Origin: Clavelina lepadiformis
Lineage: Eukaryota > Chordata > Ascidiacea > Aplousobranchia > Clavelinidae
Reading direction: 5' to 3'
Length of the DNA stretch: 64,000 nt
Assembly: GCF_947623445.1 (NCBI RefSeq)
Contig: NC_135240.1
Span: 6,262,001 to 6,326,000, forward strand
Position 1 is the stretch's first letter, and each line of letters begins with the position of its first letter. The notes under the pieces were generated by a model, which was given only the letters and a program-made list of their open reading frames with translations, made no database searches and had not been told where the DNA came from. Of this stretch, positions 6,005 to 58,661 are shown in pieces. Made by a program: the position numbers and the translations under genes.

Positions 6005-7977
6005 ATGAGAACGTTGCTTCTTGTATTCTCTTGCTTCTTCTGTTTGCTTAATTTAACCGGTACAGTCAACGCCAAAACAAGGTAAGATTCCGAAAACGTT
6101 GATTGTTAACCGCATAGACATTAACATTATGTAATATCTATCCCTAGTATAGACCTAAATCTTGCCTTAATCATGTTCATCAAGTACAAAGCACAGCTGG
6201 GGAAATACAGAAATTTATTTCTGTCAACGTTTCGTTAACCCATTCAGGTTAGCTTATACAGGGCAATGGGAAAAGTATTTCATCAGTTATGATTTGTGTT
6301 TGATGTTATTATACATGGTGGCAACTGTAGCATGTTTAATCACGTTTGTTTATCTATTATTGAATTCTATTCATTATTATTCTATTTAATTGATACCTAT
6401 TTAGCGAAAGAAGAACTTTGCGTTTGCGAGAAGCCGTAGAGCAAGTTGTATCAGAACATTTGCAATCCGATGCATTTAAAGCTTCTATTCTTCAAATCGT
6501 TGCGGTAAGTTCTGTGCTGGTTACATTGAAGCTTCTAGCAGTGAAGGCTTAATTCTAATTAGTAACTTTACCTGAACGTGAAGGAGCGCTTAGGATAAGA
6601 AGTCATGCGTGTTTTTTGCGATAACTTTCTGGGTTTTTAAAGGATCTTTTTAAAGGGTCCAGTTCAAGCCGATGTCTTGTGCCAAGTTAAGTTCGGACCG
6701 TTCTATTACTTCAGCTACACCGGGAAGTGTGAAAGTTGTTCAGTCCACTGCAGTCCACCTACAGATGGAATGAGAAAAGAATGCTTGGAACACTGCAAAG
6801 ATTTTATGACCAACCAGGCTATGAAAGATGAGCATATGGTTTTAAAGTCCGATATCAAGGTTGGTGCTAAAACCTCATTTTAAACATTGCAAGCAACATG
6901 TGAAATAACATGTCGGAGTTGCGCAACCGACTTATTTACTAAAGGATTACGTCTTCTGTCAATAATTAATTGCTGCTGTGATAGCCGTTAACAAACAATT
7001 ACTTCATGTATATAGCCTTTGATAAACGCACTTTCCTGTAGAGATGAAGGTACCAGCGTTTCAATAGGCCTTGACGAGAAGCGGAAATAAAAATCAAAAC
7101 ATGGACGAAATGGTTTTCAATTTTGACTTACCCGCAGCTAGTACAACTACCTAGTAACAATCAAAATCTTAAAGCAAATACGTTTTAACTGAGATCCCTG
7201 GCGTGTGTACAATACATCACATTTTACAGAAACTTGCCCTCAAATGAATTTACAGTAACTAGAAAATTCAATGTAACGTTGTAAAGTAACAACAGCAAAT
7301 ACCGTAGTTAAGGGAGGGCGGGAAGAGTTATATACGGTAAAAATCCAATAGAACCGACTTTTAACCTAAGCATTTAAACTGTTGCAACGAAACTCCTTTG
7401 CCTCAGGTTGCGTTTAGCAATATTATATGGATAGTGGCTATAGACTACTAGGCCTACATAGAAATGGAGATAGTGGTTCTTTTTTAGAAGAGCTGCTAGT
7501 CTAATTCATCTGTTTCAACTTATATAATCTTCAGAAACTTGAAGATGATTTTGAAACGACAAACGAGAGACTGGATGAAGTAGAAGAAGATTTTATAGGA
7601 AAGTTCTATGGACTCCTGTCAGGATTTGTACTTGTGGTTTTGGTTATTGTCGTCATCATTTTACTTTTTGATCGTCACGTGAAGCAAAAGTAAGTTGTCT
7701 CATTGTCAACGATGTCTTGTTGGCTTAATAATAACTAATTATAAAACTTTTCTAAACCTTAATTAATGATACAGCAGTAAGATAAGATTGTGCTTGTGCG
7801 TGATAACTACCAACACGGATGATATTTTCATAGTTTTCCAAGTTTCTGTAATTTTGCAGGTATGCCAGGCGCCCTCCACGTGACGTCAATCCAACCGGGG
7901 ACAACGATGAAGGAACAGGTTTGAATCCGGGATCTCAATGCTCTGGAGATTCTGGCTTGGGAAATCAAAGTGTGTAG
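6005..7977 (+). CDS. CRD-1: BCMA/TACI-like single-CRD membrane protein
   Basis: Five exons: 6005-6081, 6405-6504, 6656-6859, 7535-7689, 7860-7977, with intron phases 2, 0, 0, 2. They give 217 residues. Residues 1-22 are a signal peptide (MRTLLLVFSCFFCLLNLTG). Exon 2 carries the family segment ending SDAFKASILQIVA. Exon 3 holds one Cys-rich module, C68-x15-C84-x2-C87-x3-C91-x10-C102-x3-C106, with FGPFYYFSYTG before the second Cys. A charged stalk (128-147) leads to a TM helix (about 151-172), then a basic stop (RHVKQK) and a 40-residue tail ending NQSV. The spacing resembles the BCMA and TACI CRD2 modules of the TNF receptor superfamily, so a receptor role is inferred. Poly(A) signal at 8476. 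Closest paralog is CRD-4, with identical sizes for exons 2 to 5. Confidence 0.88.
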
Positions 7978-8481
7978 AGGAGTCTACATGTCTACAGTTG
8001 CAACACTTCCATCTTTACACTGCTTAAACCTTGACAACTGTACACTTTGCTTGGGATGGTTTTCTTCTTGTTGAAGTCTTGTAAACCTTGTGTAAACGTG
8101 TGTTAAGGTTTTCTGAAGATTCCAGCATATGGTATTAACTGTGCTTTATTTCACTTTTTATTTATGTATAAAAACGTTTTTAGTTGTAGTTCCGTTAAAT
8201 ATGAAAAGTAGTTTTCCGGCATCAGGTTAATTATTTTTGTACACACTTTGTTTATGACTTTCTGTGATGTGAGTATTTTATAATTTTATGCACAATATTC
8301 AAACCAGCGTAATACAATCCATGCAACGGTGCTTGTTTTAATTATCCAGCAACTTTAAATGTTGACTTACAGGCGATGAATTTTTTGTTTTCTCAGTGCC
8401 TGTATAGGGTATGAAGTGTAAATTTTCCTGGCTTTAGTGAACAAACTGTGTAGATTTATGCACTAAATTTATGGCAATAAA
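7978..8481 (+). other. Probable 3' UTR of CRD-1
   Basis: The stretch runs from the stop to an AATAAA at 8476. The segment at 8283-8330 (ATTCAAACCAGCGTAATAC) recurs after CRD-2 near 19807, so the two UTRs share ancestry or a common inserted piece. Confidence 0.5.
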
Positions 8482-9000
8482 CTTCTTTTACTTGTACACT
8501 TAAATAAGCACAATAAATATATGTGCTTGTGCACTCGATGGACTCCAACGAAGCTCCGGACGAATTTCCCTGGCACGTGGCGAGAACCAAAGAACTTAAG
8601 ACTATGAGACTAGTTTTAATAACGGACAAAGACACGCAAAAACAAAGTGTATTCGTCTTTTACCAAAACAAATGCATGAAACATAGCACATTTGTCGTCA
8701 CCCTGGGAAGCCAACAGATATAAAAACGTTTACCTCAATCGCTCACCGTTTATCACAATACCGGTAACTAGGTAGGTTCAACAGTTCACTCACTTTGCTT
8801 TTAACCTCACACACCTCACTTTCAGCATCGGTGCAGCCAATATTGACTTGCCTGTAAATTCTTCTCACAGTCGAGGAACCAATTTCATGTTTGTTCCGAG
8901 TTTATGCCATGACTGTGCACTTCACTCGTAGTGCTACACATGATACTAGGCGAAAAGCCGATGACGCAATCCTGGTCTTAACCATCCCGTTAAGAATTGT
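8482..9000. other. Intergenic, no gene recognised
   Basis: Short open frames only (for example 8523-8723), without a recognisable domain or supporting splice pattern. Confidence 0.4.
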
Positions 9001-9133
9001 GCTGAATTGGAACAAAACAAAACAAGATTTTATAGAAAATTTAGATGAAGTTTGGGAAAGATATCTAGTTGTTGGTTTTATGCTTGCATTATTTTGTTGT
9101 TACATCGAGCGTCAAGTGAAGCGAACTCATAAG
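9001..9133 (+). pseudogene. Possible relic of a CRD-family stalk/TM exon
   Basis: The frame reads TKQDFIENLDEVWERY, then a hydrophobic run GFMLALFCCY, then ERQVKRTHK. This parallels CRD-1 exon 4 (DEVEEDF, the TM run, DRHVKQK), which also ends in a basic stretch just before the splice donor. No partner exons were found around it. The similarity is short and partly compositional, so this is a weak call. Confidence 0.35.
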
Positions 9134-10351: not shown

Positions 10352-10394
10352 CATATTGGTCAATCGACCTCACTGATAACGAGTGACGTCAGCA

Positions 10395-12464
10395 TAAAAA
10401 TATTTCCCGGACGAGCCCCATAATGCAACAAGTAAAAATTGGTAATAACTGTTTATTCACTGACGTCTAATCGGGAACGCATTCAGTACAACCGCAAAGC
10501 TAGAATGAGGCTACAGCGACCAGAAAATCACCGCGTACGGCTTAATCAACACTCGAAGCGTGGTTGTTCACCAACCGGCCGTGCTTCAAGCAAAAAAACA
10601 AAAGGTTGTCACTGTTTCAATGGAAACAAAATCGTACGTTCACGTTCCAAGTTATTTTTCACAGTTTATTGTTTACTTATAACTTAAATGTAATAACATG
10701 GTGACTGAAATCTAATCTAAATTTAACTTTGAATCTAAATTTAACTCCAATTAAACTCTAAATCAACGTTTTGCATACTCATTCTCCCACCCAAGCCGCC
10801 TATCTTCAACTATGGGCTGCGCGGCCTACTTAGGGCGAAATAGTCGCTCTGAAAACAGAATGAGCTTGCCAATGAAAACGATTCAGAAATTAAGCGACAA
10901 AATTTGCAAAACACCTTGGAGCTTATTTCCTTACGTTGGTAACACATTGATTGAGACAATTTGGAATATTTAAAAAAATAAAATATTCGATTAGCAAACT
11001 TTTATGACATAATAATACAAATACCGTAAAAAGCTGACCTTTGATCACGACAGGTGTTTCCGCCCAGTGCGTAAATGTTTGTTTCAACAGAACTTGAAGC
11101 ATTTAATATTGAACAAAATTTATTATTTGAAAATACGTTTATCACCACCAGTTTATAGCCAGTTGAATTGTAAATGATTTACTCGCAATTGCGAAATGGT
11201 AATACTGTACTTTAAGGTTTATCAAACTTTTCATGGGGAAGGCAGATGTGAAACTCATATGACCAACCAAATATAAGCAATCGAAAAGTTATCAATCATC
11301 ACAATGCATAAACTATAATACCAAGGCCCTATTTGCAAAGTTCCCATTATAAACGTTGTGAAGTCAGGGTTTACAAAATCTGTTTCACCCTTGTGGTTGT
11401 TATTTGCGACGTGACGTGATATTGAAAGTAATCTTTCTCATAAAACTGATCACGAGTTGCTACTGGATCACATGACGTGCTTACCCAATCAGATTCCGTG
11501 CTATGTAGGTAGGTAGATATAGAAACAATATATAGGTAGGTAACTATACAGGTAGGTAGGCTAGTAGGTATAGAAACGATATATAGGTAGGTATACAGGT
11601 GTATGCTGTTATATGTAAACCGAAGAAAGATCTCCTAATTTACAATGAGAAGCGAAATGTTGACGAAAAAGCTATAAGTTGTACTAGGCCACAAGCAAAA
11701 CTAGATAGCAGATGAAATGAACGTAGATGCCAAGGAGATCAAAATAGTTTATTTGTAGACTTTCAAATGTAGCGAAAATCGTGCTTTGTAATGGACATGA
11801 AACATAAAAGTAACTAGATTTAAACATTTAACTTCATTTCTTTAAAGAAAAAACAGAATTCTTTCAAATTAATGTCAACTAACGTAAATGGTTTTAAGAC
11901 ATAAATTAGATTACATGAATATTTAGAGCCATAATGGGGTATAATGGCTGTAAATTTTTTAACTCATGCGTTTCAAGTGGTAAGTATAGTACAGTGATTG
12001 TCAACGTAAATAGAACCGAAGAAAACGATGAAATTATAACACTGCTAGAATTATCTACGTTAAAAGAATGAAAAAAAAACGTCTCAATGCTCAAGTGAAG
12101 CTGAAAATGATTAATTGAATGATTAGAATATGGCAGATAGTGATGATATTAAACGTGTGTTGGAAGTTGTTTGTTCAAATGCTCTCCTGTGTCTTATAGG
12201 TTATAGGTCACTTTTGTTCAACCGTTGGCAAAATAACTGATATAAATCGTTTGTAAAAATTGTGAAGTGTATGGATCATGTCTCCTTCAACATACTTTTG
12301 ATATAACCGAAATTAAGCAGCGTAGTGTTGAGTTTACGTTTTTGAATGCTGCCTGTTTCTTGCCTTCCAAGTCCTTCTCTGCCGTAAAAAGTTTATTAAT
12401 TGTTTTTCAGTGGAAATAAAGCTCTGCAGTTTACTCGTTGAATAAAATTAAGCAATATGGAAAA
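10395..12464. repeat. Copy 2 of the 2 kb direct duplication
   Basis: Near-identical to 1-1790. It carries the LTR (10424-11233), about 240 bp unique to this copy (11234-11470), the GGTAGGTA-rich patch (about 11505-11600) and the region leading into the endonuclease ORF at 12457. High similarity over mixed element and flanking sequence points to segmental duplication. Confidence 0.85.
10424..11233 (-). mobile_element. LTR of an old LTR retroelement (copy 2)
   Basis: An 810-bp segment with TG and CA ends, preceded on the minus-strand side by a TGG-starting primer-binding-site match at 10405-10420. A polyadenylation signal lies close to the inner end. The gag-like relic follows at 10351 and below. 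Only this LTR and the gag-like part are visible, so the element is broken. Confidence 0.55.
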
Positions 12465-13416
12465 TTTTATCCTGGTGTCCGCCAACGTGAACGGCCTCGG
12501 ACGCAATTCGGATCTCTTGAAAGTCTTCTTATTTTTGGGTCAATGTTTTATTCATTCACTGTTTTTGTGCGTGCAAGAAACCCATCTGCAAGAAAACCAC
12601 GCAGAGGATTTTTCATCGTTGATTGAACATTTGAAAAAATTAAAATATAATTTATATTTCAACAACGCTGAAACATGTGACAGCAAAGCAGGCACAGCAA
12701 TTTTTGTGAAGAGCGACCCAGCAGTAACTGACATGGAACATAAAATCATATGTAAAGGTCGTATTCAGTCGCTGAACTTCTCTTATCACGGAAAACCTTG
12801 GACATTGATTAATGTATATTTAAAATCCGGGTCTGGTCAAACGCAACAACGTACAAAACAAATAAAAGAAATCCATGACCACCTTAAGGAGAAATCGTCG
12901 AGAAATTTCATCATTGCTGGAGATTTTAACTTTGTCGAAAATAAATTGGACACAAGATGCAAAGACAACTTTCGACGAGGTTGTGACGTCAAGGCGTGGG
13001 AAGATTTAAAAAGAGCGTATAAACTGCAAGACGCATATCGTGCTTTACACCCAAATGATGAAAAATACAGCTTTGAGCGGGCCGAAGACTCAGGTCGGCG
13101 AATAGATCGCATTTATACGTCTGGAAATGTGAGCAACGATATCATTGAATGTGGTTACGTGGATACAAATGTGGATACATGCGACTATAAAAAGATTAGC
13201 GATCACAAATCAACGTATTTAGCGATGACAATGCAACAACATGCGTCAAAACAAACAGCTGCAAAGGTAATTAGGCTTATAAGTACAAACACCATCAGTG
13301 ATCGTTTAAAACAAACGTTAGTCAGAAATTTATTTGGTCATTGTAGCAATAAGTCATCTAATCTCGGATTGTATTTATTCGACTTGTTGCGTAATGACGC
13401 GTGTTATTTCTTATAA
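12457..13416 (+). mobile_element. LINE-type APE endonuclease ORF, no reverse transcriptase
   Basis: This 319-codon open frame has the apurinic-endonuclease motifs of non-LTR retrotransposons in order: SANVNGL (residues 8-14, metal/active-site Asn), CVQETHL (38-44, catalytic Glu), NVYLKSG, IAGDFNFV, GRRIDRIYTS and SDHKSTYLA (catalytic Asp-His pair). The domain appears complete and free of internal stops. The usual reverse transcriptase is absent; the frame stops at 13416 and a 169-bp tandem array begins 130 bp later. It may be a truncated LINE or an endonuclease-only derivative. In duplication copy 1 similarity ends at the same ATG, so the ORF is absent there. Confidence 0.85.
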
Positions 13417-13543
13417 ATAACAGGATCGAGAAAAGAAGCGTTAAACAGATCTTTCTAACATTGGCATGGACAATCCAAACGACGAAATGCGACAACCAAA
13501 CCCAAAAACATTCAAAACACAACAAACGAAATGGTAGAACCCA

Positions 13544-14557
13544 ACCCACGGACTTGCAGAACCCAGTCCATTGTATTTCAAAACCAATTCCCGGAGGATT
13601 GCGTTCTGATTTTCGGTAGATTGGGCCCTGAGTTTCGGAGGGTTGACTGTGATACCAACTGCAGGATACAACTGCTGGTATTGGCGCAACAACGGTTCGC
13701 CAATGTCAATTAACCCACGGACTTGCAGAACCCAGTCCATTGTATTTCAAAACCAATTCCCAAAGGATTGCATTCTGATTTTCGGTAGATTGGGCCCTGA
13801 GTTTCGGAGGGTTGACTGTGATACCAACTGCAGGATACAACTGCTGGTATTGGCGCAACAACGGTTCGCCAATGTCAATTAACCCACGGACTTGCAGAAC
13901 CCAGTCCATTGTATTTCAAAACCAATCCCCGGAGGATTGCATTCTGATTTTCGGTAGATTGGGCCCTGAGTTTCGGAGGGTTGACTGTGATACCAACTGC
14001 AGGATACAACTGCTGGTATTGGCGCAACAACGGTTCGCCAATGTCAATTAACCCACGGACTTGCAGAACCCAGTCCATTGTATTTCAAAACCAATCCCCG
14101 GAGGATTGCATTCTGATTTTCGGTAGATTGGGCCCTGAGTTTCGGAGGGTTGACTGTGATACCAACTGCAGGATACAACTGCTGGTATTGGCGCAACAAC
14201 GGTTCGCCAATGTCAATTAACCCACGGACTTGCAGAACCCAGTCCATTGTATTTCAAAACCAATTCCCAAAGGATTGCATTCTGATTTTCGGTAGATTGG
14301 GCCCTGAGTTTCGGAGGGTTGACTGTGATACCAACTGCAGGTTACAACTGCTGGTATTGGCGCAACAACGGTTCGCCAATGTCAATTAACCCACGGACTT
14401 GCAGAACCCAGTCCATTGTATTTCAAAACCAATCCCCGGAGGATTGCGTTCTGATTTTCGGTAGATTGGGCCCTGGGTTTCGGAGGGTTGGGTTCGATAC
14501 CAATTGCGGGATACAAATGATGGTAGTAGCGCAACAACGGTTCCATGGATCGTAACC
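13544..14557. repeat. Six-unit tandem array, 169-bp period
   Basis: Units begin at ACCCACGGACTT at 13544, 13713, 13882, 14051, 14220 and 14389. The first five differ by only a few bases; the last diverges in its second half. The unit has no stable ORF of its own: the 79-codon frames repeated at 169-bp steps are by-products. Its position just after the endonuclease ORF suggests a LINE 3' region or a local satellite. High unit identity implies recent expansion or homogenisation. Confidence 0.95.
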
Positions 14558-17969: not shown

Positions 17970-19413
17970 ATGCAGTGGACGAAGTTTGCGATGTTGTCAC
18001 TTTACCTAATATCTTACGTATGCGTTACGTCAGCAACTGAAACCGATACAAGGTATGTTTATAAAGATAGCGATGCTGAAACCTAAGGCTTAATGTTGAA
18101 AAAAAAACGGTTTGTTTGAGTATTTTAGCTCAATCCTTTTCTAATTAGCGTAATCGTGAATTTTTACATCGCAACAGTCTTACGACCGCATGTCCGGATA
18201 ATTGCGTCACTACAGACTTCTTCAAGCAGTCAGCATTTACCGGCTTTGTTTTCAAGGCAGTTCAAGTAAGTTGGGTTAAAGCACGAAATGTGATACACGA
18301 GCGTCAAAGTAAGCGTACATTTACACTATACTACTGTTAATTTTTGTTCCAAAGTCTTTCCAGCAAGCTGACCTCGACTGCAAGGCTGCAAATGGTATTG
18401 ACTTTTACCTGGCTCCAACCGGTTGTAGGGATTGTGCCGTTGACTGTAACCCAACCTCTAGCAGCTTTCAGGTTGAATGTTTGAAAAACTGCCGAGGTTT
18501 TATGGAGAAACAGAACCTAATCAACGAGTTACAAGAATCAAGAAAACTGATTGAGGTCAGTTGCTTTTTAAAAGGTTGGGGTAAAGTTGATGTAGAATGA
18601 GATAGGGGTAAAGTTAGCTTTGCTATGAAGTAACACGACTGTTATTTCCAGGATCTCGAACAAAAACTCAATGCGACTCAAACTAGCCTTGAGTCTTGGC
18701 AGAATGATGTTATTGCTTTACAAGCAAACGAAAAAGTAAGCTAATAAACTACATTTACAAGGCACGTGTTGCCTCGCATGAGCCTCGCGTTAAAGTGACG
18801 TCACCAACGCAAATATTTATTTTTCTTCTTGTCTCGATGTAAAGCAGACACTGTTATGTGTTGTTGTATGTGTACAAGACGCTTTAAAATTTACTTCATG
18901 CCAAATTAAATTAAGATCAATTTCTTTTGTAGTCGTATCAACGACAATTGCAGTTTCAAAGCAACAGTTGTAGTGAGACCGCTAATGATGTGAACGACCT
19001 GCAAAGTACAGTGACAATTTCCACTGGAATTTCTATCGCTGCTCTGGTCTTGACTTTATTTATATTCGGTTGTTCTTGGGTTCGTTTTACTCGGTATGAG
19101 CACCACGCTGATAAAAAGTAAGACACTCATTACGAGCATAACTACCGTACATAAACACAGCAGACGATTTCAACCACTTATAATTTGAGCAAAATGTTGT
19201 ATTTTGATCAGGTATCAACCAAAGGTGCAGCAGGTTGATGGAGATGTAAGATGGGTCGCCGAGACAGCGGAGGAAAAAGAAAAACTTCGTCCAATTGTCG
19301 ACCAAGACAGTGACTCAGGAACCGGCGGGAGCAGCCAAATTTTTCAAAATGATTTCACAAACCCTGGCTCAGAAAGCAATTCCGCGACGCAAAGCGTTGC
19401 TCAAAGTGTGTAA
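17970..19413 (+). CDS. CRD-2: six-exon BCMA/TACI-like membrane protein
   Basis: Exons 17970-18052, 18178-18265, 18355-18555, 18652-18735, 18933-19117 and 19212-19413 (phases 2,0,0,0,2) give 280 residues. A signal peptide (about 1-23) is followed by an exon-2 segment with an extra Cys pair (ACPDNC) and TTDFFKQSAF. Exon 3 holds C66-x14-C81-x2-C84-x3-C88-x10-C99-x3-C103 with NGIDFYLAPTG. The C-x14 spacing equals that of the TACI CRD2. Exons 4 and 5 encode a predicted helical stalk and a TM helix (about 179-202). The 66-residue tail contains TAEE, a minimal [PSAT]-x-[QE]-E match to TRAF-binding motifs, and ends AQSV. CRD-3 has identical sizes for exons 3, 4 and 5. Poly(A) signal at 19974. Receptor function is inferred from fold pattern and topology. 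Confidence 0.88.
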
Positions 19414-21998: not shown

Positions 21999-22596
21999 CA
22001 GGGGTCGGCAACCTTTTTCACTTAAAGAGCCATTTTAACCGATATTCCACAAAATAAAAATCACTGGGAGCCGCAAAACTATTTTCACAATAAAACGAAA
22101 ACGACACTCTGTAACAAAACTGTCATGTGTCGCATTTATAAAAGCAGTTAATTCAGTAAGATTTAATTAATGTGATTTAATTAATGTGATTACTATAATG
22201 TGCTCAATGAGATAAAGACGCGAGTGTTCTTCTGTTTGTTTCTACTGTAGCAATAAAATTAATAAGAGCCGCATCAGAAGGATGAAAGAGCCGCAGGTTG
22301 CCGACCCCTGCCTTAGCTGGATTGGGGCGAAAACCGATGATGGCTACAGATGCATAAAATTTGGCGGTAGGCGATATGGCGCACACCGGCTTGCTTATAT
22401 GCTACTGGTGAATCAGTCGCCCATACCGCTTACCGGAAAACTTCACGTAAGTCACGCGTGCCATCACCGTCTTTGTGTCAATCCACACCATTTAAGTTTG
22501 GAGCCAGCCGAAAATAACAACGCAAGAAAGCGCTGCTTGCAAAACCAGTTTTGCTTTGGCCATGACAAGTTTAAAACGTGCATGTTTTGGCCTTAA
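21955..22596 (+). pseudogene. His-Me-finger (His-Cys box) nuclease ORF split by a MITE
   Basis: Downstream of the MITE the frame reads LSWIGAKTDDGYRCI, then RRYGAHRLAYMLL, then HVSHACHHRLCVNPHHLSLE and NNARKRC. This is the pattern of the zinc-binding-loop region of I-PpoI-type His-Cys-box homing endonucleases (Pfam zf-His_Me_endon). The frame up to the MITE at 21998 (NRVRLAPNTCC) continues in phase after 22310 once one 8-bp target copy is discounted. The open part ends at 22596. The family often travels with mobile DNA; whether this copy was ever host-used is unknown. Confidence 0.7.
21999..22310. mobile_element. Non-autonomous hAT element (312 bp)
   Basis: Inverted ends CAGGGGTCGGCAACC and GGTTGCCGACCCCTG, with a perfect 8-bp target duplication CCTTAGCT at 21991-21998 and 22311-22318. 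The interior repeats the AGAGCCGC motif near both ends. It interrupts the nuclease frame. Confidence 0.93.
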
Positions 22597-31072: not shown

Positions 31073-32496
31073 ATGCAGACAATGGAACATATTTCATTGT
31101 TGTTTTGCCTTACAGCTTCATACTTATGCGTTTCACAAGTAAATGGTGCTTCTGGTAGGTAAGTAGCCTAGGTTTAGTTGCTTTCAGTTGTTAACTAAAT
31201 TGTTTTGCTTAAAAGCGATTTAGGCTGTTTACACTGAGCAAGTTTTTTTACACTAAGCAAGCAAGTCTTTGTGCAGCTATGAGCTCTGTTGATAATTTTC
31301 TTTTCTGTCATAGCAACACTGGTGGGACTTGCACCGGCAATTGCGTCACTACAGACTTTTTCAAGCAGCAGAATTTTACTGACCTTGTAGCGGAGATAGT
31401 ACAGGTAAGATAACTAAGATGAAAGTTGTTAACAACTTCTAAAAAGCAACATACTTTGGCGCTAATATCAATCTTTGTTTTAAAGTCCTCCCAACAAGCT
31501 GATCTCGACTGCAAGGTTACAAACGGTACAGACTTTTACTTTGGTTCAACCGGATGTAGGAATTGTGCCGTTGACTGCACTACATCCTCTAGCAGCTTTC
31601 AGGCTGAATGTTTGAAAAACTGCCCAGGTTTTACAGAGAAACGCTACGTACGTAAAGAACTAGGAGAAGCGGCGTGGCGGATACAGGTCAGATATTCTTG
31701 CCTTAGAATGAAATAAGTTAGGTGTTGGAACAGAAACCTTAATCAAGTAACACGACTGTTGTCTGCAGCAAATCAAAAACGACATGTACATTTCCGGGTT
31801 CAGGTATTCCAATTTAAACAACGATGTTGCCTCTTTACGTCAAATCCAAAATGTAAGTTAATAGGTCCTGAATGTCACAAGGCATTTGAATTTATGATGC
31901 TTAGGTCTATCTTCAGCTATCTACACAGTGACGTATACTATGTATGGTTATTAAAGTGAGTGCATAACGCTAGCTATAATCATTTGGCTTCTGCTTAATT
32001 TTCTTTTCGTATTTGTTGTTGAGGAGTTAAATAAATATGACAGCTATACTTAAATCAAAAACAAAACTCGTCATTTGTGTATTTGCAGAACTTGCAGCAG
32101 CAATTAAGTCGTTTAGCGAAAGAATTGAATCAACTACAGACCGAACAAGAAAAGGACAGGAACGAATTGACGACGGTGAAAAATATTTCCATCAGTTGCT
32201 TGGTTCTAATTTGCTTGGGATTCATCTGCACTGGGATTGCCTTTCGCTCGTTCAGACGCCACGCAGACAAGACGTAAGTACATGGAAGAAGACCCGAAAT
32301 CTAGTTCCAATCGCCGACTATTTAAACCAACATAGAAGTTAAACAATGATGTTTTGTTCTGAACAGTTATAGAACAATCGAATCTAGCGCACATCAGGCA
32401 GAAGAAGAGAGATTGTCTGCTGGAGCGGATGAAAGACGAAATCTTCGCAAAAACGCGGACCAGGACGAAGACCACGGAACTAGCGAAAGCTTGTAG
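31073..32496 (+). CDS. CRD-3: six-exon BCMA/TACI-like membrane protein
   Basis: Exons 31073-31158, 31314-31404, 31486-31686, 31769-31852, 32089-32273 and 32367-32496 give 258 residues with the same phases as CRD-2. Signal peptide MQTMEHISLLFCLTASYLCV. Exon 2 has the CTGNC pair and VTTDFFKQQNFTDL. The Cys-rich module is C68-x14-C83-x2-C86-x3-C90-x10-C101-x3-C105 (NGTDFYFGSTG). Residues 155-185 (LQQQLSRLAKELNQLQTEQE) form a heptad-like coiled coil before the TM helix (about 187-206). The 42-residue acidic/basic tail contains AEEE, a minimal TRAF-type match. It lies tail to tail with cholinesterase 1, whose stop is 665 bp away. CRD-2 is the closest paralog. Confidence 0.88.
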
Positions 32497-36039: not shown

Positions 36040-36890
36040 ATTTCTGCACGAAGGTATAATTGTTAAGCATTAGCAGGCGAGCAAGGTGATGCCTCAAGTT
36101 ACTCATCAACGCGATTTCTAAAGAGATCTATACAACCGCCAACAGACTCCAGAACACTGTAGCCATCGAAAGGTACACTAGCAACTGCAACCAGAAATGC
36201 ATAGGTTTCAATATCCATATATTCTTTAAGCTAAAAACTTAAGAGTCGAACGCCGCAAGTTTAAGCTGCTACCCAAAGGCGGACTGTTCTGTCAACATTT
36301 CCACTACAAACTTGCTGATGGCTGCATTTATCCAGCACTTAAACAAATCTATCACACGCCTGCAGCTAACTTCGAAACCACGTGGCTCGTGTCATAATGC
36401 CCATTTGTCGACTGCAGGAACAGAGCAGTGAAAAGAACTTATAACAAAGTTCCTGTTTCCTCGCAGCATTAACTTCGCAATTAAAATAACTCAGCCCTCG
36501 CAAGATGCAGCCTTTCTCTACTAACTGCGCTTCGCACGCTTATCAGCTGATTACTGCATTCACTACACGTTTCAGTGACGTCATAATTAAAAAAATTTTA
36601 GGACATTTTGATCTAATTGAGCAACTGAAACAAGCTGCACTAGTTAAGGAATTTATTTTCAGGAAAATATCGCCGGCAAAGTTATTTTAAACGACTCAAC
36701 ATTAGAAGCGTTCTGCAAAATGTATTTTCATAACTCAGGAAACTTTGCTAGAAATGTGATTGCGTAACTCTTGTTCCTACAATAACAATAATAATTTAAT
36801 TGGTATCACAAACAAGAAGTTATCAGAACTACCTTTGGGAAAAATGTTGTCAGATAATTATGAGCATACAGTATATACATAAGCACCCAC
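36040..36890. other. Region between cholinesterase 1 and CRD-4
   Basis: The genes are divergently arranged (cholinesterase 1 on minus, CRD-4 on plus). The part 36246-36552 is a clear duplicate of 44031-44346, upstream of cholinesterase 2, and shares AAGTTTAAGCTGCTACC and TTAACTTCGCAATTAAAATA. These are likely shared cholinesterase upstream sequences carried by the duplication. Confidence 0.7.
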
Positions 36891-37119: not shown

Positions 37120-39030
37120 ATGAACTTAACAACAGCGTTTGTGTTTGTTGGACTTGTAAGTCTGACTGTAACAGTCAACTCCAAGCCAAGGTGAACATTA
37201 TTATCATTTGATTTAAATGACGTAAAAATTTAAAGCTATAGCCAGCCTGTCAGAAAGTTAATATTTACGTCAGACACTTTATTAAACAACAAACGTTTCT
37301 ACTAACCACTTCCAATTTTTAGTGGAAAAGCCAGAGCATTGGGAAAAGTAGCAGAGCAAGTTTTGGCCGAAGATTTCCTCAAAACAGACGCTTTCAAAAA
37401 AACTGTTCTTAGAGTTATTGATGTAAGTAGAAAAATGCTTACTTGTTATAGGCCTAACTAATTCATGTTAAAACACTAGTCCACACATTAAATAACAATA
37501 GATTTTGGAAACATGTTTTTAGAGTTATTGTTGTTAGTATCATACATGGTTATTTCTTACAATTCAATCAATGTTTTCAACTCTTAGCATGATACACTAT
37601 GGTCTACAATTATACCTTTATTAACTTGTGAAATAATAGTTTGCTGATATAACAATAGTTATAATAGATTAAATTCATGCATTTGTTTTAAGACTCGCAA
37701 ACAGAAAGACATAGATTGCCAAGCAAAGTTCGGGCCGTTCTATTACTTCAGCTACACTGGAGCATGCGAAAGTTGTTCAGTCCACTGCAGTCCACCTACA
37801 GAAGGAATGAAAAAAGAATGCTTGGAATACTGCAGAGATTTCATGACAAACCAAGTTTTAAAAGATGAACAGATCATTTTGAAATCAAACAATAAGGTAA
37901 AACCATTTGTTAAAAGTACATCCAGGTAAATATCATGCGTTAAAATTCTAAGTTGCGACACAAGTAAACTTTCATTTTCGTAAATCATTAACAGTATATG
38001 TCGAAAATTGATGCAATGAAGCCGTCTTTCGTAGGCTACTGAACAAACTGTTTACCTAATGACAAACCCTATAAAGTCGCTTCCCATTGTTACTTGAGTA
38101 GTTTGATAGTATTTGATTTGTGATAGTATTAGGTTGGTAATTGCTTCCGTTGGTCAGAATTTTGTCAGTTAACTAGACTAGATCAGTTGATCTGGATATT
38201 TAACCTGGTTGAATTACATTGAACCGATTGGCAGAAACTAGAAGATGATCTTGAAACAACAAACCAGGAGCTGAACGAAGCAAAAACTGACTTTGCAGGA
38301 AAGTTCTTTGGGCTTCTAACAGGATTTTTGGTCTTGATTTTGCTATTGATCGTCTTCCTTGTTTTGTTTCTACGTCACGTGAAGCAAACGTAAGTGCAGC
38401 ACGAACCTAGGACCTAGGTAGCCTATACATATAATATATAGTCTTATGGTGCTTCGAACGTCTTGCTAGGTTGCATGCTTCAAAACTAATATTGCCATCA
38501 CGGGTTTTGTGCAATTAGTATAGAGTCTGTAATATTACAGCACGTTGTTTGTGCCACTATAGACCTATAACGTTGGTTCCCAAAGTGGGTTCTGCGGACA
38601 TTTGGGGCTCCATTAAAAGTGCCAAGACTTCTGTGAAACAAATACATATATTGGGATAATCATGTATTGAACATATAATATCCAAATTATCTAGGTATAT
38701 GCAAATTACATTACAATCTAGTTGCATTAAAGCAGACATTTATTTGCTCCTTAAATATCTCCCACTCGAATCATTTGCTTATTCTGTGTTCCTTGGAAGT
38801 TCGAAAAATCCAGATGGGTTTCGTGCCTTGAGAAATTTGGAAACCACTGGCCTAAAGATTAACCAAAACATAAGCAGTTGTAGGCAACCTCGCAGCTTCT
38901 TGTATTTCGCAGATACGCAAAGCGTCCTCCACGTAATGCCAACCCATCCGGAGACAAGACAGAAGAAACCGAAATGAGTTCAAACACTCAGTGTTCTCAA
39001 GACTCTGATTTCGAGGATTCAGACGTGTAG
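37120..39030 (+). CDS. CRD-4: five-exon BCMA/TACI-like membrane protein
   Basis: Exons 37120-37190, 37323-37422, 37693-37896, 38235-38389 and 38913-39030 give 215 residues; sizes of exons 2 to 5 equal those of CRD-1. Signal peptide MNLTTAFVFVGLVSLTVTV. Exon 2: EQVLAEDFLKTDAFKKTVLR. Cys-rich module C66-x15-C82-x2-C85-x3-C89-x10-C100-x3-C104 with FGPFYYFSYTG. A charged heptad-like stalk (126-146) leads to a TM helix (about 149-171) of almost pure aliphatic residues and then RHVKQT. The tail is acidic and Ser-rich, ending EDSDV. It lies between the two cholinesterase genes. Poly(A) signal at 39308. Confidence 0.88.
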
Positions 39031-40377: not shown

Positions 40378-43300
40378 CTAATGGATGTGACATCGCTGTT
40401 GGAACGATATTAATGCGTGTCTCCAGGAATCCATGGAGTCCAACCAATGGTGGAAGTCCATTATCCTAATCCTTTCGACATGGTCAATCCCACCTTGACA
40501 AATCATATCATTTTACATGGAAACACTAGTCGAAATTCAATCGTGCTTGTGAGTAATCCCCTAAACCGGTCTTACTTGTGGCGAACTCGAGGGCGGGAAG
40601 ATATTTCTCCCAGAAAGCGCAGTAGAAAGGCTGAGGGGCCGGGCTTCTCACAATGTCGCCGTCTTTTGTGATTTCCAAGTAACTTTGGTCGATTTCGTGA
40701 AAGACTGGCCAAATTAACTGGTGTCCCTCTGGCGCGGCGTGGCCGTTTGGATCTCTGTGATATGACGTAATAGGATGAAACGAGAGAACCAATGACAATT
40801 TAAAAACTGAAGGCAAACTAAAATATTTAAACCGACTGACCCGAATTTGGCAAAATTTGTCCAATAGTGAACCATTCGGTGCGATACTTGCCGATCTTCG
40901 TCATCGTATATGTTGAGGTTAGGGGAATGCCCAATCATAGGAAGACCAAATACCAGCTCTATGTCGTAGCCGTGCATGACGTCAGCCCATTGTGGCCAGG
41001 GATTGGTTGAGAGGCGGTAGGAGAGATGATACATGAAGACATTCTTCCCAATTTGTGAATGAAGCCTGAAACGACAAATTCAGAAAATATCTGTGTGATA
41101 AATAAACTGAACATGGCTGAGATGAAGATGTGAAAGTGGTGAAAATGAAAGCTTGTGAAGTAGGTAGAGATACAAGTAGAAACAAGTTCACTAAACCTGC
41201 AACATCGGCAAATCAGTTTCAATTTAACCAACCTCAATATGTAGTTCTGCGCATCAAGCAAGAAACGATTTATACTTTGAAAACGAGCTTACAGCAATGA
41301 AATAACTAAAGATACTGGTACCAACTTACTTGGATAGTCGTATGGTGGGGCAGAGGATGTGAAAATGGTCCACAATCGCGTTGAGAGCATCTTTGTATTG
41401 TCCTGGATTGGAAGGGTGTTCCCAGTCCTTGTACATAAAAGCTACGGCAGACCTTCCCCATTCGTTGGTTCGCAAACCACACATCGATATACCTTTGTTA
41501 TACTGGGATCTGGGTTGTGGATTAAGCGGTTGTCAGCGATCTTTGAAATATTTTCTTAGGTTAACTAACACGCCGTCGACAACTTACTCGGTCGTTAAGG
41601 TTTTTGTGCTGGTGTTGTCATGGGAATTCCAGAAAGAATTAAAGTAAGATCCCCCGTTTGAGTTGGAGCCAAGGAGGATGTCGATTTCAGGATGTCTGCT
41701 CTTGTTGACCATCTGAAGTATAGTAAAAAAAGGATACGGGATCGATAAATTCAAATTAAGTTGAAAATTTTGTTTCCGAAAGAGATCCACCTCTTGCGGA
41801 TCCTCCGGAAGAAAGTCGGTCCCGTAAACCGGAACAAAAGGAAAATCGAACAACTCTGAAGTAATCCATGACGCGGAAAACAGCTCATCAACATCCTTGG
41901 ATCGAAGACATTCCAGTATGACCTCGAAGTCTGTTGTCGGGCAGGAAAGTTTAGTGGCCATAACTTTAGTACGTTCTAAGGCAGTGTCGAGACTAACGGC
42001 CGCCCACGGTGTCAGCGCATTTCCGCTTTGTAGAATCACTCTGTAATTGGTCCATGGTCATTGCCTTGCTGGTGTGTTATATTAAACCAAAATTACCTGT
42101 TAAAAAGTCCACTGCTAGATGGCGCCAATGTGTGAAGAGAAACCGACGCAGCGCCAGTACTTTCCCCAAATAACGTCACGTTGTCAGGGTTACCGCCAAA
42201 GTTTTTGATGTTCTCCTGAAGCCATTTTAGCGCCCACTGCTGGTCGAGCATACCCACATTGCCTGGAGCCGATTTACCGAGGGGCGGGAGAAAACCTAGG
42301 GGACCCAGCCTGTAATAACAGACCAAGACCATAAGCAAACTATGGATGATTCTCGGGGACGGATACTTAGAGATTATGACCAACAACAATATTCAGGTCG
42401 TAATTTGACAACCTGGTCACTTCAAAAGAAAAATCTCAGTCACAATGCATTCACCTGTAATTGAATGAAACAACGATCACGTGCCCAGCCGCCGATAGAT
42501 ATCTTCCGTCGTAAACCGAAAGTGCGGAGGTTCCGCTGAAATACGATCCGCCGTATATCCAAACCATCACAGCAAGGCGCTCTTCCTCGTGGTGGTCAGG
42601 GGTCCATATGTTCAAAGTAAGACAATCTTCGCTTTTACGGTTGGGTTCATCCCATATTTCCGCCCCTGAGTGAAAAATCTGTTTCATCACAATATTCTTT
42701 ATTTGGTTCATAAAACATCTTTCAACATAGCTAAAAAATTCTTGTTTTGAGCCAAGCAAACTTTTGGTTTGTTGTTTTGAAATCGTGTAAGCAACCTACA
42801 GTTACCAACTGCAACAAAGATGCAAACCAAAACTATCAACAGGCCCTTACTAATTCTGAAAAACCAACCTGGAAACCCTGAAAAGGTAGGGTCGCCTTGA
42901 TGGAAGCAAGAGGGTCCAAATTCCGTGGCGTGCAACGCCTGTTGCCATGGTGATGAAGCTTCAGGACCAGAGAAGCGTTGTGGAGCTATCGCGAATGGTA
43001 TTCCCAGAAAGGCTCGAACCCCATGCGGCTCTCCGGTGACGTCAACGGTTACATGCTCTCCAATTACGTCACCATATCTGCAAAGCGCGATTGTAGCTTA
43101 AATGCCTTGTTTTTATACTTGTAGTCGGACTACCGACTTTGGTGGCCGTATGCACAGTTCTCACTTGTAGCACAACCTAGTGGTCATGCCACCGGTCGGT
43201 AGTCCGACTAGAGATGGCAGTACTTTGTATGCAGAGACCTCACTACACGAGTCTCGGAATAACTAGTGCAGTTTTCTACCTTTCTATGTTTGTTGCCAAG

Positions 43301-43903
43301 CAACAAGTTATGAGCAATACACATTGTTACATCATAACATTTCCTGAGCGTTCAAACAACCGTGAATATAACAACTTTGGCACATCGATGAATGAACTTT
43401 GACATATCGATGAATGTCATGTGTGCAAGTACCCCGCTTTCCACTACTATTGCGTAGTTAAGGCAGAAAACTCTTTGAAATGTTTTGCTTTAGAATTCAA
43501 CTCTTAGCTCCTAACTAGACATAAAATGCAGTGATTTACAAAAACTTGATTGTGATAAAGACGGCGTTTAGCTGAACCATGGTCAATACATGTGCGTCTA
43601 TGCTTTAACTATGTGTTGGAACTTATAGATAACTCCTCCTTCTAGACCGGCCAGTACTGGCAAATCCTATTGTCTCAGACATACGCATCCTTTAATTAAT
43701 TAGATCATAATGTCAATTATAACGTAATATATTTACTTGGTCGACACGCGAAGACGGTTGATTTGTTGATGGTCGAGATGTTGATAGGTGGCATGTTGAT
43801 GGTTGACATGTTGACGATAAGAAGAAGCCTTATAAAATACTAAACCGACAAATGTTAAAATAAAGAATCCAGCCAATATTACGAGCGCAACAACGCCTTG
43901 CAT
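40378..43903 (-). CDS. Cholinesterase 2, catalytic Glu replaced by Gly
   Basis: Ten exons, high to low: 43737-43903, 42869-43077, 42455-42665, 42097-42309, 41791-42040, 41588-41712, 41330-41509, 40841-41065, 40576-40754, 40378-40493; 624 residues. Exons 2 to 8 have exactly the sizes of cholinesterase 1. The N-terminus ([20 protein letters not shown]) is a long hydrophobic segment, a signal peptide or signal anchor. Choline-site Trp ([13 protein letters not shown]), Ser (GESTGAAS) and His ([14 protein letters not shown]) are present. The acid position reads SNGGSYF, where AChE has DEGSYF, so the triad lacks its Glu. The oxyanion motif is again GGSYFSG. The last exon is a diverged T-type tail ([14 protein letters not shown]) that keeps a Cys (QQRCHIH). 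Probably low or altered activity, perhaps a binding or adhesion role. Confidence 0.92.
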
Positions 43904-45270
43904 TTCTGCGTGAAGGTAAATATTAAGCAGCAGCAAGTTGGTGTCGTAGGGTTCTTATTAACACGACTTTTGAATACGCAATTGCATCCAGTTCTAAATT
44001 TCTTTACACAAGCACTAAACTTGAGCTTCGAACACAGCAAGTTTAAGCTGCTACCTTACGTCTGACTGTTCTGTCAACATTCTCACTACATATTTGTTAA
44101 TGATCCTGGCTGCATTTATCTAGCGCCTAAACAAAACCGTCACGCGCCTGCAATTGACTTCTCTACCACGTGGCTTGTTGCAGCAAAATGCCCATTTGTC
44201 GATTGCAGAAACAGAGCAGTGGAAAGAATTTATAAGAAAATTCCTGTTTTCCTCACAGCATTAACTTCGCAATTAAAATAACTCAGCCCTCGCAAGATGC
44301 AGCCTTTCTCCACTAACTGCGCGTCGCTTTCTTATCAGCTGATTGCTGAGTGGTGTCATAGTTAAGAGAAATTTAAGAGGTCTAGTTCTGACAAACTTAT
44401 TAAAAGACGTTGCATTAGTTAAAGGTCCTCTGCGATGGAATCTTCAGGTCATAGTGTTATTGCAAATAGTTAAATGCTTGACTTTCTTGTGCAGTGTTCT
44501 GTGTTCTGGTCATGCATCACTAACTTTACTTTAAAAGCGAAGTTTGCTTGTTCTTGAACTTTCTCTTTGAACAATTGCATTTTTTATTATATAACTTATT
44601 ATGCTTTTTATGCATTTGTAGATAACTTATAAAACAAATCACAGCGGTTTTAAGAGCTGTTACACATCTAGGCTGTCCTCAATTATTTAAATAATCAGGA
44701 AATTAGGTTAGCTTGTGCCGCTTGCTGTTGTCCTTACACATAGTCTTGCTCACTAGGCGGCGTGAAGTAGTCGCAAATGTATTTTTCAATTTTGTTCCGA
44801 TATTGTGTATGTTGGCTGATATTTTGACCATTGTATCAGGTGAAAAAAACGCAAGGTGTCGCTGTGGGGTTGATGTTGATGACGAAGTTTTAACAAATCA
44901 GGGTGCCGCAAAAAGTGCCGTCCGCATGCGAATGATTACGTTGCATTCGTCACGCATCATTGCATTAGTGAGACAAGTGCGTCACTTTGAGCGGGTTACT
45001 GCATGTAGGACAAATAAAAGCAGAATGCACTAAGTGAAGTGAACTTTACCTTGAAGATTGCTTTTATTTTTCTGTTTTTGCTAATTTGTATTTATTATTT
45101 TTATGATGTGTTTTAATAAAAACAAAAACAATCAGAGTGTTGTTGAAGAAGGTAAAATTAAAAAATAAATTACAGAAATATCATTCAGTCTTCCACTTTC
45201 CACTGTAGCGATAAGTAGCCCACATTTCATGGGTTAAATTGAAACAAAATGACCGCGATGAAGCTTTTGA
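43904..45270. other. Cholinesterase 2 upstream and intergenic
   Basis: 43904-44346 contains cholinesterase upstream sequence, with 44031-44346 duplicated at 36246-36552. Beyond it no gene is recognised; no CRD-type gene follows as CRD-4 follows the other copy. Confidence 0.55.
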
Positions 45271-49749: not shown

Positions 49750-51311
49750 ATGCAACTTTCCGGTTCAGCTGCGATTGGTCTGTGCTGCCTTTTGTGTATC
49801 CACTTCGCTGTGACTGCAGCAGTTGACGAAGACACGAGGTAAGTTACCTTGTACCGCAGATAACGAGGGTTGTTAATTTTCGAAACACGTTTCGTAGACG
49901 TTGATCAGAAGACGTAACGTCTCACTGCTTATGCTCAGCGATTATGACAACACCACCAATACTTGTCGAGAGGGATGTTTGACGGAGGAATTCTTGAAGC
50001 AAACCGCCTTCGACAACGCTGTCTTCAGAGTTATTGCGGTAAGCTAAATTCACCTTCGAACCGCAAATTGACTCCAATGAAATGTTGTACAGGATACTAA
50101 AAATTTACAGGCTGTGCAAGAGGCCGACCTACAATGCAGACTAAAACATGGCATCGACTTCTACAACAGCGGGGCTGGCTGCCGAGACTGCCAACAAGAC
50201 TGTAATCCTCCATCTAGAAGTATGACGAAAACTTGCTTTCAGAAATGCGGGAGTTTTATGGAAAAGCAGAAGTTGACAGACGAATTACAACAGCTGAAAA
50301 CAGAAAATGCGGTTCGTTTTGTTGTTTTCGAGTGTCTCAAACACGATCTCACTAAACATTCTAGTAATCGCTTATACTGGGTTCTTGATCCCAAGTTTAA
50401 GTTACCCAGTTTATTGGTGAAACAAACATCTTTGTTGTGTAAATAAGAACGCAAAGGAACCATCATAATTGTGGTTGTCTTATTTTCAGATTCTTAAAGA
50501 GCAACAAAACGTTACAGCGACAACTGTTGTGGCCCTTGCGGAAAGCAACAGAAGTTTGCAGACACGTCTTGAGGTTCGTGTTCTCATAAGCGCCTAAATT
50601 ACGTCGAAAATATTACCAAGGTAAATATTTGAACCTAAGCACCGCTTTCATGTCTGCCGTATGCCACTTACGTAGGTTGCGGAAAACCAGCTGATTTCAA
50701 CTATCAGTGACTTCAACCGATTAAGCAGCAAACATGAAACCGACCAACAGCAGTCGCAGTCTACGTCGGGAAGTTGGCATATCGGGACTGTAGTGGTTGT
50801 AGGCGTATTGTTTGCCTTGATCATTGTCGTGATTGTCGGCGTTATAGTCAGTCATTTGCAGTTAAAGAAGTACGCGCGCGAAACGTAAGTGTTTCTTTTT
50901 TGTTCCTTCGTGACGTTCTTAAAATGATGGTAATAGCTGGTGTTAAGAGTTTAGTGTTTTGTGGTTTACTTTTTCAAGCCGGCGCTCTTAATCAACTATT
51001 GCGATAATTTGATTGGTGTATATAGCTTGTTTAAAAAAACTTAACCGCGTAACCGGCTCGGTTAACACACAGCAGTGTGCTATGAAGCATACCGCCATTT
51101 AGCCTGCGTGCTCCTTCACATTTTTACCGCTTTGCAGTAGCCCGTGCGTTTGGTGGAAAAACCGTTTTCAGCGCTTAATATCTTTAATAGGTTTAGACCC
51201 AAAGAATCAACTGCTCAACATCCCACCACCGACCAATTAGCGGCACAAGAAGAAAACCAACATTTATGCAACGAAAATGGAAACGCACATGACAACCCGG
51301 CGCAAACTTAG
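49750..51311 (+). CDS. CRD-5: six-exon BCMA/TACI-like membrane protein
   Basis: Exons 49750-49838, 49939-50038, 50111-50311, 50490-50573, 50676-50884 and 51191-51311 give 267 residues. Signal peptide MQLSGSAAIGLCCLLCIHFA. Exon 2 has the Cys pair CREGC plus EEFLKQTAFDNAVFRVIA, combining CRD-2/3 and CRD-1/4 features. Cys-rich module C72-x14-C87-x2-C90-x3-C94-x10-C105-x3-C109 (HGIDFYNSGAG). A Gln/Ser-rich stalk leads to a TM helix (about 194-216). The tail contains AAQEE (245-249), matching the minimal TRAF motif [PSAT]-x-[QE]-E in two registers. Exon 5 is 24 bp longer than in CRD-2 and CRD-3. Poly(A) signal at 51840. Confidence 0.88.
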
Positions 51312-56897: not shown

Positions 56898-56959
56898 TTA
56901 CCATAGATTCTGTGTATTGTTTCGAAATAATTAACAAACAACAAACCACTTAAAGCAAA

Positions 56960-58661
56960 ATGCATTGCATGTTGTTATTTGTGTTATCCTACGTGTGTCT
57001 GGCGTCTGCTGGGACCAGAAAAGTAAGCAACAGGTAAGTTTGACAATTTTAGTAGTCACTCCAATTACTGTACATGTGGCGTAAACTGCAATCAAACGAG
57101 GTTATATATAGAGTCAATTGGATAGCTGATAATAATCAATTAAAGTTTTGTCGTCATTTAAAATATGAAACATCAGTATTCAACCTAATTCTGAAACTTT
57201 ACTGCAGTGATCCGACGTCCAACCAAATGTTGACGAAAGATTTTCTGGAAACGACCGCGTTTAAACACACCGTGCTTTCCGTTGTCAAGGTATGAAAACT
57301 TGCTCTTGTTTCGATATTAACATAGGGCAGCTTTATTAGAAATGCGCATGATGTGATAATGAGACCTTTGTTTGTCACAGGAAGCCACAGACGCCGATGT
57401 TGAATGTAAGCTGAAGAACGGGCATTTCTTTTACTTTAGCTACACTGGTCGTTGTGAAAATTGCGCCCTCCACTGCACCAAGCCTACAGACGGGATGGCA
57501 AAGGAATGTTTCTCTAAGTGCGAAGATTTTATGATCCAGCAGAGATTGCAACAACAAATTGCACTAAACGCTGTTCAAATAAAGGTACGAACGACAAACC
57601 TCGTTATAAATTAAACGTGCGTTGAGTGCCAGAAGTCAATACGAGTGACGTCATCACGCTGCTAAACAGCCGCACTGTGTGCAGCTTGCAACATCCGGGG
57701 CTTCCCCATTCTCAAACGTACCGGTCAGGAGTTGCCCATAGGTTATTTTAGCCGGGTTGTTTTCGGTTTTAAAACAGATTCGAACAACACTAACAATCTA
57801 GTTCTGACGTGAACCCAACTGAACTTTGCCGCCTCCTTATTTTCAGGGGCTTCAGGAAGAATTGGCGTCCACCCAAAAAGATTTGGAAAAGTCAGAAAGA
57901 AAAATTTCCAGCATGACCCTCGGTTTCTTCGGGATTATCGGATTCGTTTTTGTTTGTGTCATCGGAGTCGTGTACGGAATCGTGACCTACGTCAACAGGA
58001 AGTACGTAATGATGGATGTTACATCTGGTCTTAGTCTTGTAACACAATATGTATCAGACCACTGCGCCAATTAACTTAAACGACTAAGGATCAAGCTTGT
58101 ATGGCAAGCAAGCCTGGTGCTTTTTTGGTCCAAAAGCGTATTTATAATGACGAATAGGTTTTGCACAACCACAATAAGATTTACACGGGCAAGTCGCTTG
58201 ATGTGAGTGCAAGTCGTGAATTTACTCGAGTAAATATGGAGCAGGGGTAGAGACCCTTCCAAAAATACATTCTTGGCATTCGCCATTACATTCATGTTTA
58301 CAACCATAAGTGTTACAGAAATTCGGGCTTTTTAACGGGTCTCATGGTTGTCGATGTTTCACCATGCGGGTGACGTCGTTTATCGATTTTTGGGAAAGAG
58401 TTTTAGACTGGAAAGTTAGGCCTATACGGCAATGACGCATTCGTCTGTCGTCACATCGCGGTAATTATTTCACAACCTCTTAGTTATTGAATGTAAGAAT
58501 ATCTTGTACCACCGGCAGGCGCATAACTTTTGTTTATCTTCCACAGTTTTTCGAGACGGCCGCCAACAAACATCCATCCGAAAGGTGATGACGTCAAATT
58601 TTTCCCACATCCAGAAGACGACGCCGGATACGAAAGCGTCCAGGTGATCCCGAATGTATGA
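56960..58661 (+). CDS. CRD-6: five-exon BCMA/TACI-like membrane protein
   Basis: Exons 56960-57033, 57208-57289, 57381-57584, 57847-58001 and 58547-58661 give 209 residues. Signal peptide MHCMLLFVLSYVCLASA. Exon 2 is 18 bp shorter than in CRD-1/4 but keeps MLTKDFLETTAFKHTVL. Cys-rich module C61-x15-C77-x2-C80-x3-C84-x10-C95-x3-C99 (NGHFFYFSYTG). A charged stalk leads to a TM helix (about 144-166), then VNRK and a tail beginning FSRRPPTN, aligning with YARRPPRD of CRD-1. The tail has GYESVQV, a YxxV motif that might act in endocytosis or SH2 binding (inference). Exons 3 and 4 match CRD-1 in size. Confidence 0.87.

Follow-up and report, generated by a model that had tools for sequence, protein, structure and literature searches.

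A clustered family of stalked cell-surface proteins in the ascidian Clavelina lepadiformis carries a six-cysteine head similar in build to minimal TNF receptors

BCMA, TACI and BAFF-R steer B cells in vertebrates. BCMA (TNFRSF17) and the second cysteine-rich domain (CRD) of TACI follow the spacing C-x12/14-C-x2-C-x3-C-x6/8-C-x3-C, with a Tyr or Phe ahead of the second cysteine and a D-x-L ligand motif. Grindelwald of Drosophila also has one small CRD (PDB 6zsy, 6zsz, 6zt0) and crosses the membrane once; to our knowledge it does not occur as a gene array. PMC8024323 describes this CRD as a pair of antiparallel helices preceded by a beta-hairpin, spaced C-x3-C-x11-C-x3-C, with eight cysteines, an X2 hairpin with two bridges and no D-x-L motif. 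Here, we analyzed 64,000 nucleotides of the ascidian Clavelina lepadiformis (contig NC_135240.1, here C1, positions 6262001-6326000; hereafter the window) within a searched genome of 209,060,895 bases on 95 contigs. In a preliminary description, the window had been proposed to contain an array of six BCMA/TACI-like receptors with a single CRD. Our data reveal a cluster of nine related genes, and we tentatively favor the view that they encode type I cell-surface proteins, a family expanded within this lineage, whose compact head is used as in single-CRD TNF receptors (TNFRs).

The six genes of the window (G1 to G6) were rebuilt exon by exon. All six are real plus-strand genes with one intact open frame of 209-280 residues, and their introns have GT-AG ends throughout, with none flagged otherwise. 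Each protein consists of a hydrophobic N-terminus, a piece encoded by exon 2, the six-Cys exon, a stalk, one transmembrane (TM) segment (mean Kyte-Doolittle value 2.3-3.5) and a short tail. The N-terminal stretch and the TM segment were called by hydropathy only, and the signal peptide that had been assigned to each protein is putative. Such a peptide had been considered unusual for this receptor type, which does not hold, as both Grindelwald and Fn14 have one. The six genes had also been said to agree in architecture and intron phases. This is correct for the general plan and for the shared phase series, but two classes can be distinguished, arranged along the window in the order A B B A B A. 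Class A genes have five exons and the phases 2,0,0,2 (G1, G4, G6). Class B genes (G2, G3, G5) have six exons, with one more stalk exon and one added phase-0 intron (2,0,0,0,2), a longer stalk, and an extra cysteine pair, C-x3-C, in exon 2.

In class A, G1 (6005..7977, plus strand as all six; 217 amino acids) is composed of exons 6005-6081, 6405-6504, 6656-6859 (Cys exon), 7535-7689 (stalk and TM) and 7860-7977 (tail), G4 (37120..39030; 215 amino acids) of exons 37120-37190, 37323-37422, 37693-37896 (Cys exon), 38235-38389 and 38913-39030, and G6 (56960..58661; 209 amino acids) of exons 56960-57033, 57208-57289, 57381-57584 (Cys exon), 57847-58001 and 58547-58661. In class B, the exons of G2 (17970..19413; 280 amino acids) lie at 17970-18052, 18178-18265, 18355-18555 (Cys exon), 18652-18735, 18933-19117 and 19212-19413, those of G3 (31073..32496; 258 amino acids) at 31073-31158, 31314-31404, 31486-31686 (Cys exon), 31769-31852, 32089-32273 and 32367-32496, and those of G5 (49750..51311; 267 amino acids) at 49750-49838, 49939-50038, 50111-50311 (Cys exon), 50490-50573, 50676-50884 and 51191-51311.

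The family is larger than an array of six. Six genome searches, with exon 3 of G1, G2, G5 and G6 and with whole G4 and G2 as queries, recovered nine exon-3 places, all on C1 between 5,965,980 and 6,319,584; this count is a lower bound, as the search scores the best candidates only. Non-self exon-3 matches among the nine have expect values (E) between 5.5e-40 and 1.8e-5. Three members are located outside the window, U1 (C1:6196837), U2 (C1:6256328) and U3 (C1:5965980, minus strand). All three could be modelled intact and belong to class A, which thus has six genes. The tail exon of class A starts with [YFI]-[AS]-[RK]-x-x-P and later contains P-x-G-D in 6/6 cases. The cluster arose by tandem duplication, and the window holds six of the nine members, in line with the earlier proposal of a lineage-expanded family. 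Beyond the nine, only two weak places came up in these searches, and both were set aside as family members: C1:21733338 (E 0.024, query positions 18-64) contains an internal stop, and C6:17030669 (E 0.44, query positions 95-183) matches mostly the stalk and lies in a frame of 1831 residues.

The cysteine pattern given in the preliminary description was confirmed, with C-x15-C-x2-C-x3-C-x10-C-x3-C in class A and a first loop of x14, but an identical remainder, in class B; all six cysteines are present in 9/9 members. Invariant in all nine are D6, C9, G14, Y18, G23, C25, C28, C32, C43, C47 and F50. An aromatic pair occupies alignment columns 17-18, read as Y-Y or F-Y in class A (at -8/-7 from the second cysteine) and as F-Y in class B (at -7/-6), so that the FY motif noted before describes class B and part of class A; column 17 is aromatic in 9/9. 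The first loop of x14/15 and the fourth of x10 compare with x12-14 and x6-11 in BCMA, TACI and Grindelwald. The array and Grindelwald share one small domain, the spacing C-x2-C-x3-C-x10/11-C-x3-C, a hairpin followed by a helix-loop-helix (predicted in the array), an aromatic residue eight positions before the second shared cysteine (Phe46 in Grindelwald; class A of the array) and the lack of a D-x-L motif. On the contrary, Grindelwald has eight cysteines and the array six, an N-terminal helix bearing the first cysteine is predicted in the array only, and the linker to the membrane is shorter in Grindelwald. Compared to BCMA and TACI, the array lacks the D-x-L ligand motif, its fourth loop is longer and a stalk is added, and Pfam gives no match to these families.

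Of the 36 gene pairs that nine members allow, 12 were compared in five regions of the genes. Exon 3 shows the highest identity in 7/12 pairs, and in the class A copies that have diverged further no part is conserved as strongly as the head; part of exon 2 is conserved together with it. The exceptions are three pairs among the recent copies G1, U1 and U2, where the tail is higher (in G1-U2 also the first exon), G3-G5, where exon 2 reaches 0.37 and exon 3 0.36, and G1-G2, where tail and first exon are higher in short alignments. The nonsynonymous divergence (dN) of exon 3 is the lowest in 8/12 pairs, and its dN/dS ratio (omega) is 0.16-0.37 in the 8/12 pairs in which synonymous divergence (dS) was computable; for many other region-by-pair cells it was not. 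Hence, purifying selection acts on the six-Cys exon. An omega above 1 was found only in exon 2 of G1-U2 and in the stalk of G1-U1, values that rest on 6 and 7 changes, and diversifying selection was not accepted on this basis. In G1-U3 (0.59), G4-U3 (0.63) and G2-G3 (0.58) the dS of exon 3 is below that of the other computable regions, which hints at gene conversion of exon 3; G1-G4 shows the opposite trend (exon 3 1.10, stalk 0.59). The cysteines, being invariant, show no covariation.

Two AlphaFold models of exon 3 were calculated from the shallow alignment of nine rows, with exon 2 left out. With class A as first sequence the predicted local distance difference test score (pLDDT) was 86.6 and the predicted template modelling score (pTM) 0.64; with class B first they were 89.7 and 0.68. 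Both models agree in a helix at residues 2-13 that contains the first cysteine. It is followed by a short hairpin, then by two helices, a short one at 28-31 (27-31) and another at 37-46 (36-45), and finally by a long helix that runs towards the stalk. The order of hairpin and helix-loop-helix fits a CRD. In a Foldseek search of the PDB, TACI from its APRIL complex (1xu1) was ranked second and fourth with the class A model (E 3.7 and 5.7, TM score by target 0.49 and 0.51), values that are not significant. Profile comparison with hhalign gave 28% for the array against BCMA and two TACI CRDs, with the last five cysteines in register, and 58% against a set of six CRDs, composed of BCMA, two TACI sequences, Grindelwald and the Fn14 of human and of frog. 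The controls were 90% for BCMA with TACI, 38% for Grindelwald with BCMA/TACI, 7% for Fn14 with BCMA/TACI, and 0.9% and 1.2% for Kunitz domains with BCMA/TACI and with the six CRDs. The array therefore reaches values like those of true but distant TNFR pairs.

Several results weigh against a TNFR-type head. A Pfam profile search, proposed earlier as a check, returned no TNFR-type match: at E<=10, with HMMER filters discarding most matches above about E 0.1, no TNFR, TACI or BCMA family appeared in the whole proteins G1-G5 (G6 and U1-U3 were scanned as pieces only), and no TNFR-type family in the nine exon-3 modules or the nine pieces of exons 2+3. Genome scans with PF00020 (TNFR_c6; 16 places, eight over cut-off) and PF09305 (TACI-CRD2; three places, none over cut-off) gave no place in the cluster. 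Matches that did occur were rejected as reflecting composition, namely those of whole G1-G5 (E 5e-4 at best, all below curated cut-offs, and for the most part with coiled-coil and TM families) and those of the exon-3 pieces (four families) and exon 2+3 pieces (five families), in both cases led by FAZ1_C in one member (E 0.0033 and 0.0052). The nine-row exon-3 profile matched 12 sequences in the PDB, none a TNFR, and the best was the Kunitz chain of TFPI (1irh, E 0.003), followed by BPTI variants at E 0.16 and weaker; exons 2+3 together again retrieved 1irh (E 0.006) and no TNFR. Against Grindelwald alone hhalign gave 8% and against Fn14 2%, and in the six-CRD alignment, where the match spans 24 columns, the last cysteine of Grindelwald and Fn14 is out of register with that of BCMA/TACI. 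When the cysteine columns were fixed and the other columns shuffled, 18/200 shuffles equalled the real score for BCMA/TACI and 11/200 that for the six CRDs, while 0/200 did so for Kunitz. In the models, the first cysteine sits inside a helix where a TNFR hairpin module would begin. None of the 34 Foldseek matches of the class A model is significant (E >=3.2), and the class B model gave five matches with no TNFR and none relevant. Within the tails, Pfam recognised no domain, including a death domain, in the five whole proteins (of nine) scanned, and a loose TRAF2-like motif is absent from all six class A tails; it is found in 3/3 class B tails, yet also in 24-28% of the shuffles of each.

Both in the sequence searches and in the shuffle test, the resemblance to Kunitz domains thus exceeds that to TNFRs. 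Kunitz domains follow the pattern C-x8-C-x15-C-x7-C-x12-C-x3-C with G-G-C and N-N-F, as also seen in the Kunitz domains examined here. The head could be derived from such a domain by loss of the first cysteine and gain of one in the loop, a protease-inhibitor module turned receptor head, for which disulfides C9-C32 and C25-C43 and a new pair C28-C47 are expected. In class A, the x15 loop, the letters F-Y-Y and T/I-G-x-C of the hairpin and the terminal C-x3-C fit this idea, as does the hhalign value of 18.7% that the array reaches with 12 Kunitz domains encoded in this genome. However, this match covers 19 columns of the hairpin only, and the first Kunitz cysteine, G-G-C and N-N-F are absent, with one extra cysteine present. 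When tested as single sequences, three of the 12 domains were reached by 0-3 of 500 shuffles and nine by 49-468, so that most do not stand out; TFPI (0/500) had been picked because it was the top match. Kunitz families were not found by Pfam in whole G1-G5, the exon-3 modules or the exon 2+3 pieces, a genome scan with PF00014 (40 places) gave none in the cluster, and no match described as Kunitz occurs in either Foldseek list. Both models place a helix at about residues 27-31, which does not fit a Kunitz fold, and being shallow they are not proof. The TNFR resemblance is mostly one of spacing, and the Kunitz resemblance is at residue level but confined to the hairpin. A Kunitz origin appears improbable to us.

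That the proteins are true, divergent members of the TNFR superfamily by descent, a version of the reading we favor, is rather unlikely in our view. The hhalign values, TACI among the top fold matches of one model and the aromatic column, which in class A sits at the position of Grindelwald Phe46, argue for it. Speaking against it are the lack of a Pfam match, the shuffles that equal the real score, the helical first cysteine, the absence of TACI from the class B matches and of a clear TNFR signalling motif, and the single-sequence test, in which only TACI CRD1 (11 of 500 shuffles) and frog Fn14 (2) stand out from the six CRDs, the others being BCMA (60), Grindelwald (99), TACI CRD2 (123) and human Fn14 (207). 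A more serious competitor, to which we give almost as much credit as to the favored reading, is a tunicate-specific head fold unrelated to TNFRs, serving in adhesion, self/non-self or gamete recognition; the head would be kept between two helices, that of exons 2/3 and that of the stalk, and would bind no TNF-type ligand. This would account for the lack of a convincing family match in Pfam or among PDB sequences, for the lack of a significant fold match with either model (the class A model also gave 113 matches in a viral structure library, the best at E 0.99 and the best 50 of 113 uninformative), for the helix around the first cysteine and the joint conservation of exon 3 and part of exon 2, and for the tandem arrangement of linked genes, of which U1 has a changed first exon. 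On the other hand, the head matches Grindelwald and BCMA/TACI in cysteine spacing, in the position of the aromatic residue and in predicted topology, and it bears no sign of diversifying selection, which families for self/non-self or gamete recognition often show. Taken together, it is partly supported that the proteins are TNFR-like in build; kinship to TNF receptors is suggested and the superfamily membership claimed initially is unproven, and the likeness may reflect descent or convergence.

If the head is indeed used as in single-CRD TNFRs, the proteins might work as follows. The predicted head, a helix with the first cysteine, a short beta-hairpin and a disulfide-rich helix-loop-helix, would be a compact module binding a protein ligand as in Grindelwald, BCMA and TACI. 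Behind the head, a stalk of largely coiled-coil-like character is predicted, followed by a single TM helix and a tail of about 40-85 residues. The stalk may hold the receptors as dimers or trimers and thereby pre-cluster them, and the tail could recruit cytoplasmic partners upon clustering. Duplication and divergence of stalk, tail and first exon would then yield a receptor set around one conserved head. The coiled-coil character of the stalk, part of the preliminary description, is backed in most proteins by a home-made heptad score, which no more than 34 of 500 shuffles attained in 7/9 cases, but less so in G4 (50/500) and hardly in G5 (119/500).

Traces of the duplications are visible around G1, which shares blocks of 1.8-2.5 kb with about 90% DNA identity with U1 and with U2. 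The first exon of U1 differs from that of U2 and G1. A first-exon relic of the same sequence type as the U1 first exon lies upstream of G1 (2849..2897, plus strand), and window positions 2564-2897 match L031 DNA at 86.9%. As a U1-type exon has survived upstream of G1, it seems that duplication was followed by the exchange or loss of first exons. Downstream of G1, a segment that may be the relic of a stalk/TM exon (9011..9124, plus strand) resembles a stretch adjoining U2, with weak E-values of 2.3 and 0.81. G1 is also flanked by a direct repeat (1-1796 and 10394-12465) in two blocks, 840 bases at 95% and about 1 kb at 88% identity, which may mark the borders of a duplicated unit or represent a mobile element.

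Other features are interspersed with the family. Two carboxylesterase-family genes (PF00135) on the minus strand flank G4 (33201-36556 and 40412-44348); their duplicated blocks have 79-86% DNA identity, and matches to PF00135 were obtained for one open reading frame (ORF) in the first copy and for three in the second. An endonuclease/exonuclease-type ORF (12442-13416, plus strand; PF03372, with PF14529 below cut-off), by kind similar to long interspersed nuclear elements, precedes a tandem repeat at 13543-14543 (period 169 bases, 5.9 copies, 96% matches). At 22216-22596 (plus strand) an ORF matches zf-His_Me_endon (PF05551, E 2.9e-9), a zinc loop of homing-endonuclease type that is unexpected in an animal genome. 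Finally, of two ORFs on the minus strand at 60282-61566, one probably has a TM segment and the other contains a stretch that is Ig-like by eye; neither has a Pfam match at E<=0.01.

In favor of the reading preferred here, the genome encodes both TNF-type ligands and ordinary TNFR exons. TNF-domain exons were located at five places, among them C9:1927763 and C4:9562485; two of the five are over cut-off. Seven TNFR_c6 places (five over cut-off) lie within about 350 kb at C6:19891736-20238119, which suggests a separate cluster of ordinary TNF receptors. For tunicates, PMC12843592 (2026) reports up to 14 TNF ligand genes that arose via tandem duplications; its main text contains neither the word Clavelina nor the word BCMA. 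Our limited literature search, covering titles and abstract openings, retrieved no description of the present family. A changing receptor side facing the tunicate TNF ligands would be plausible. The more specific idea that a non-vertebrate chordate expanded minimal Grindelwald/BCMA-like receptors to nine, with a coiled-coil stalk pre-assembling the receptor, is one we consider unlikely; if true, the stalked nine-receptor cluster would add a new receptor architecture to the TNF system, opposite a set of TNF ligands that is reported to change rapidly in tunicates. The rival readings predict different disulfide maps, as a TNFR-type module would be expected to pair C9 with C25 and C28/C32 with C43/C47, in contrast to the Kunitz-type pairs given above. 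If the head is not homologous to TNFRs, the cluster would represent a family of cell-surface proteins with a small disulfide head that is so far uncharacterised. If it is homologous, the family would bear on the origin of the single-CRD receptor type and on the receivers of the tunicate TNF ligands.

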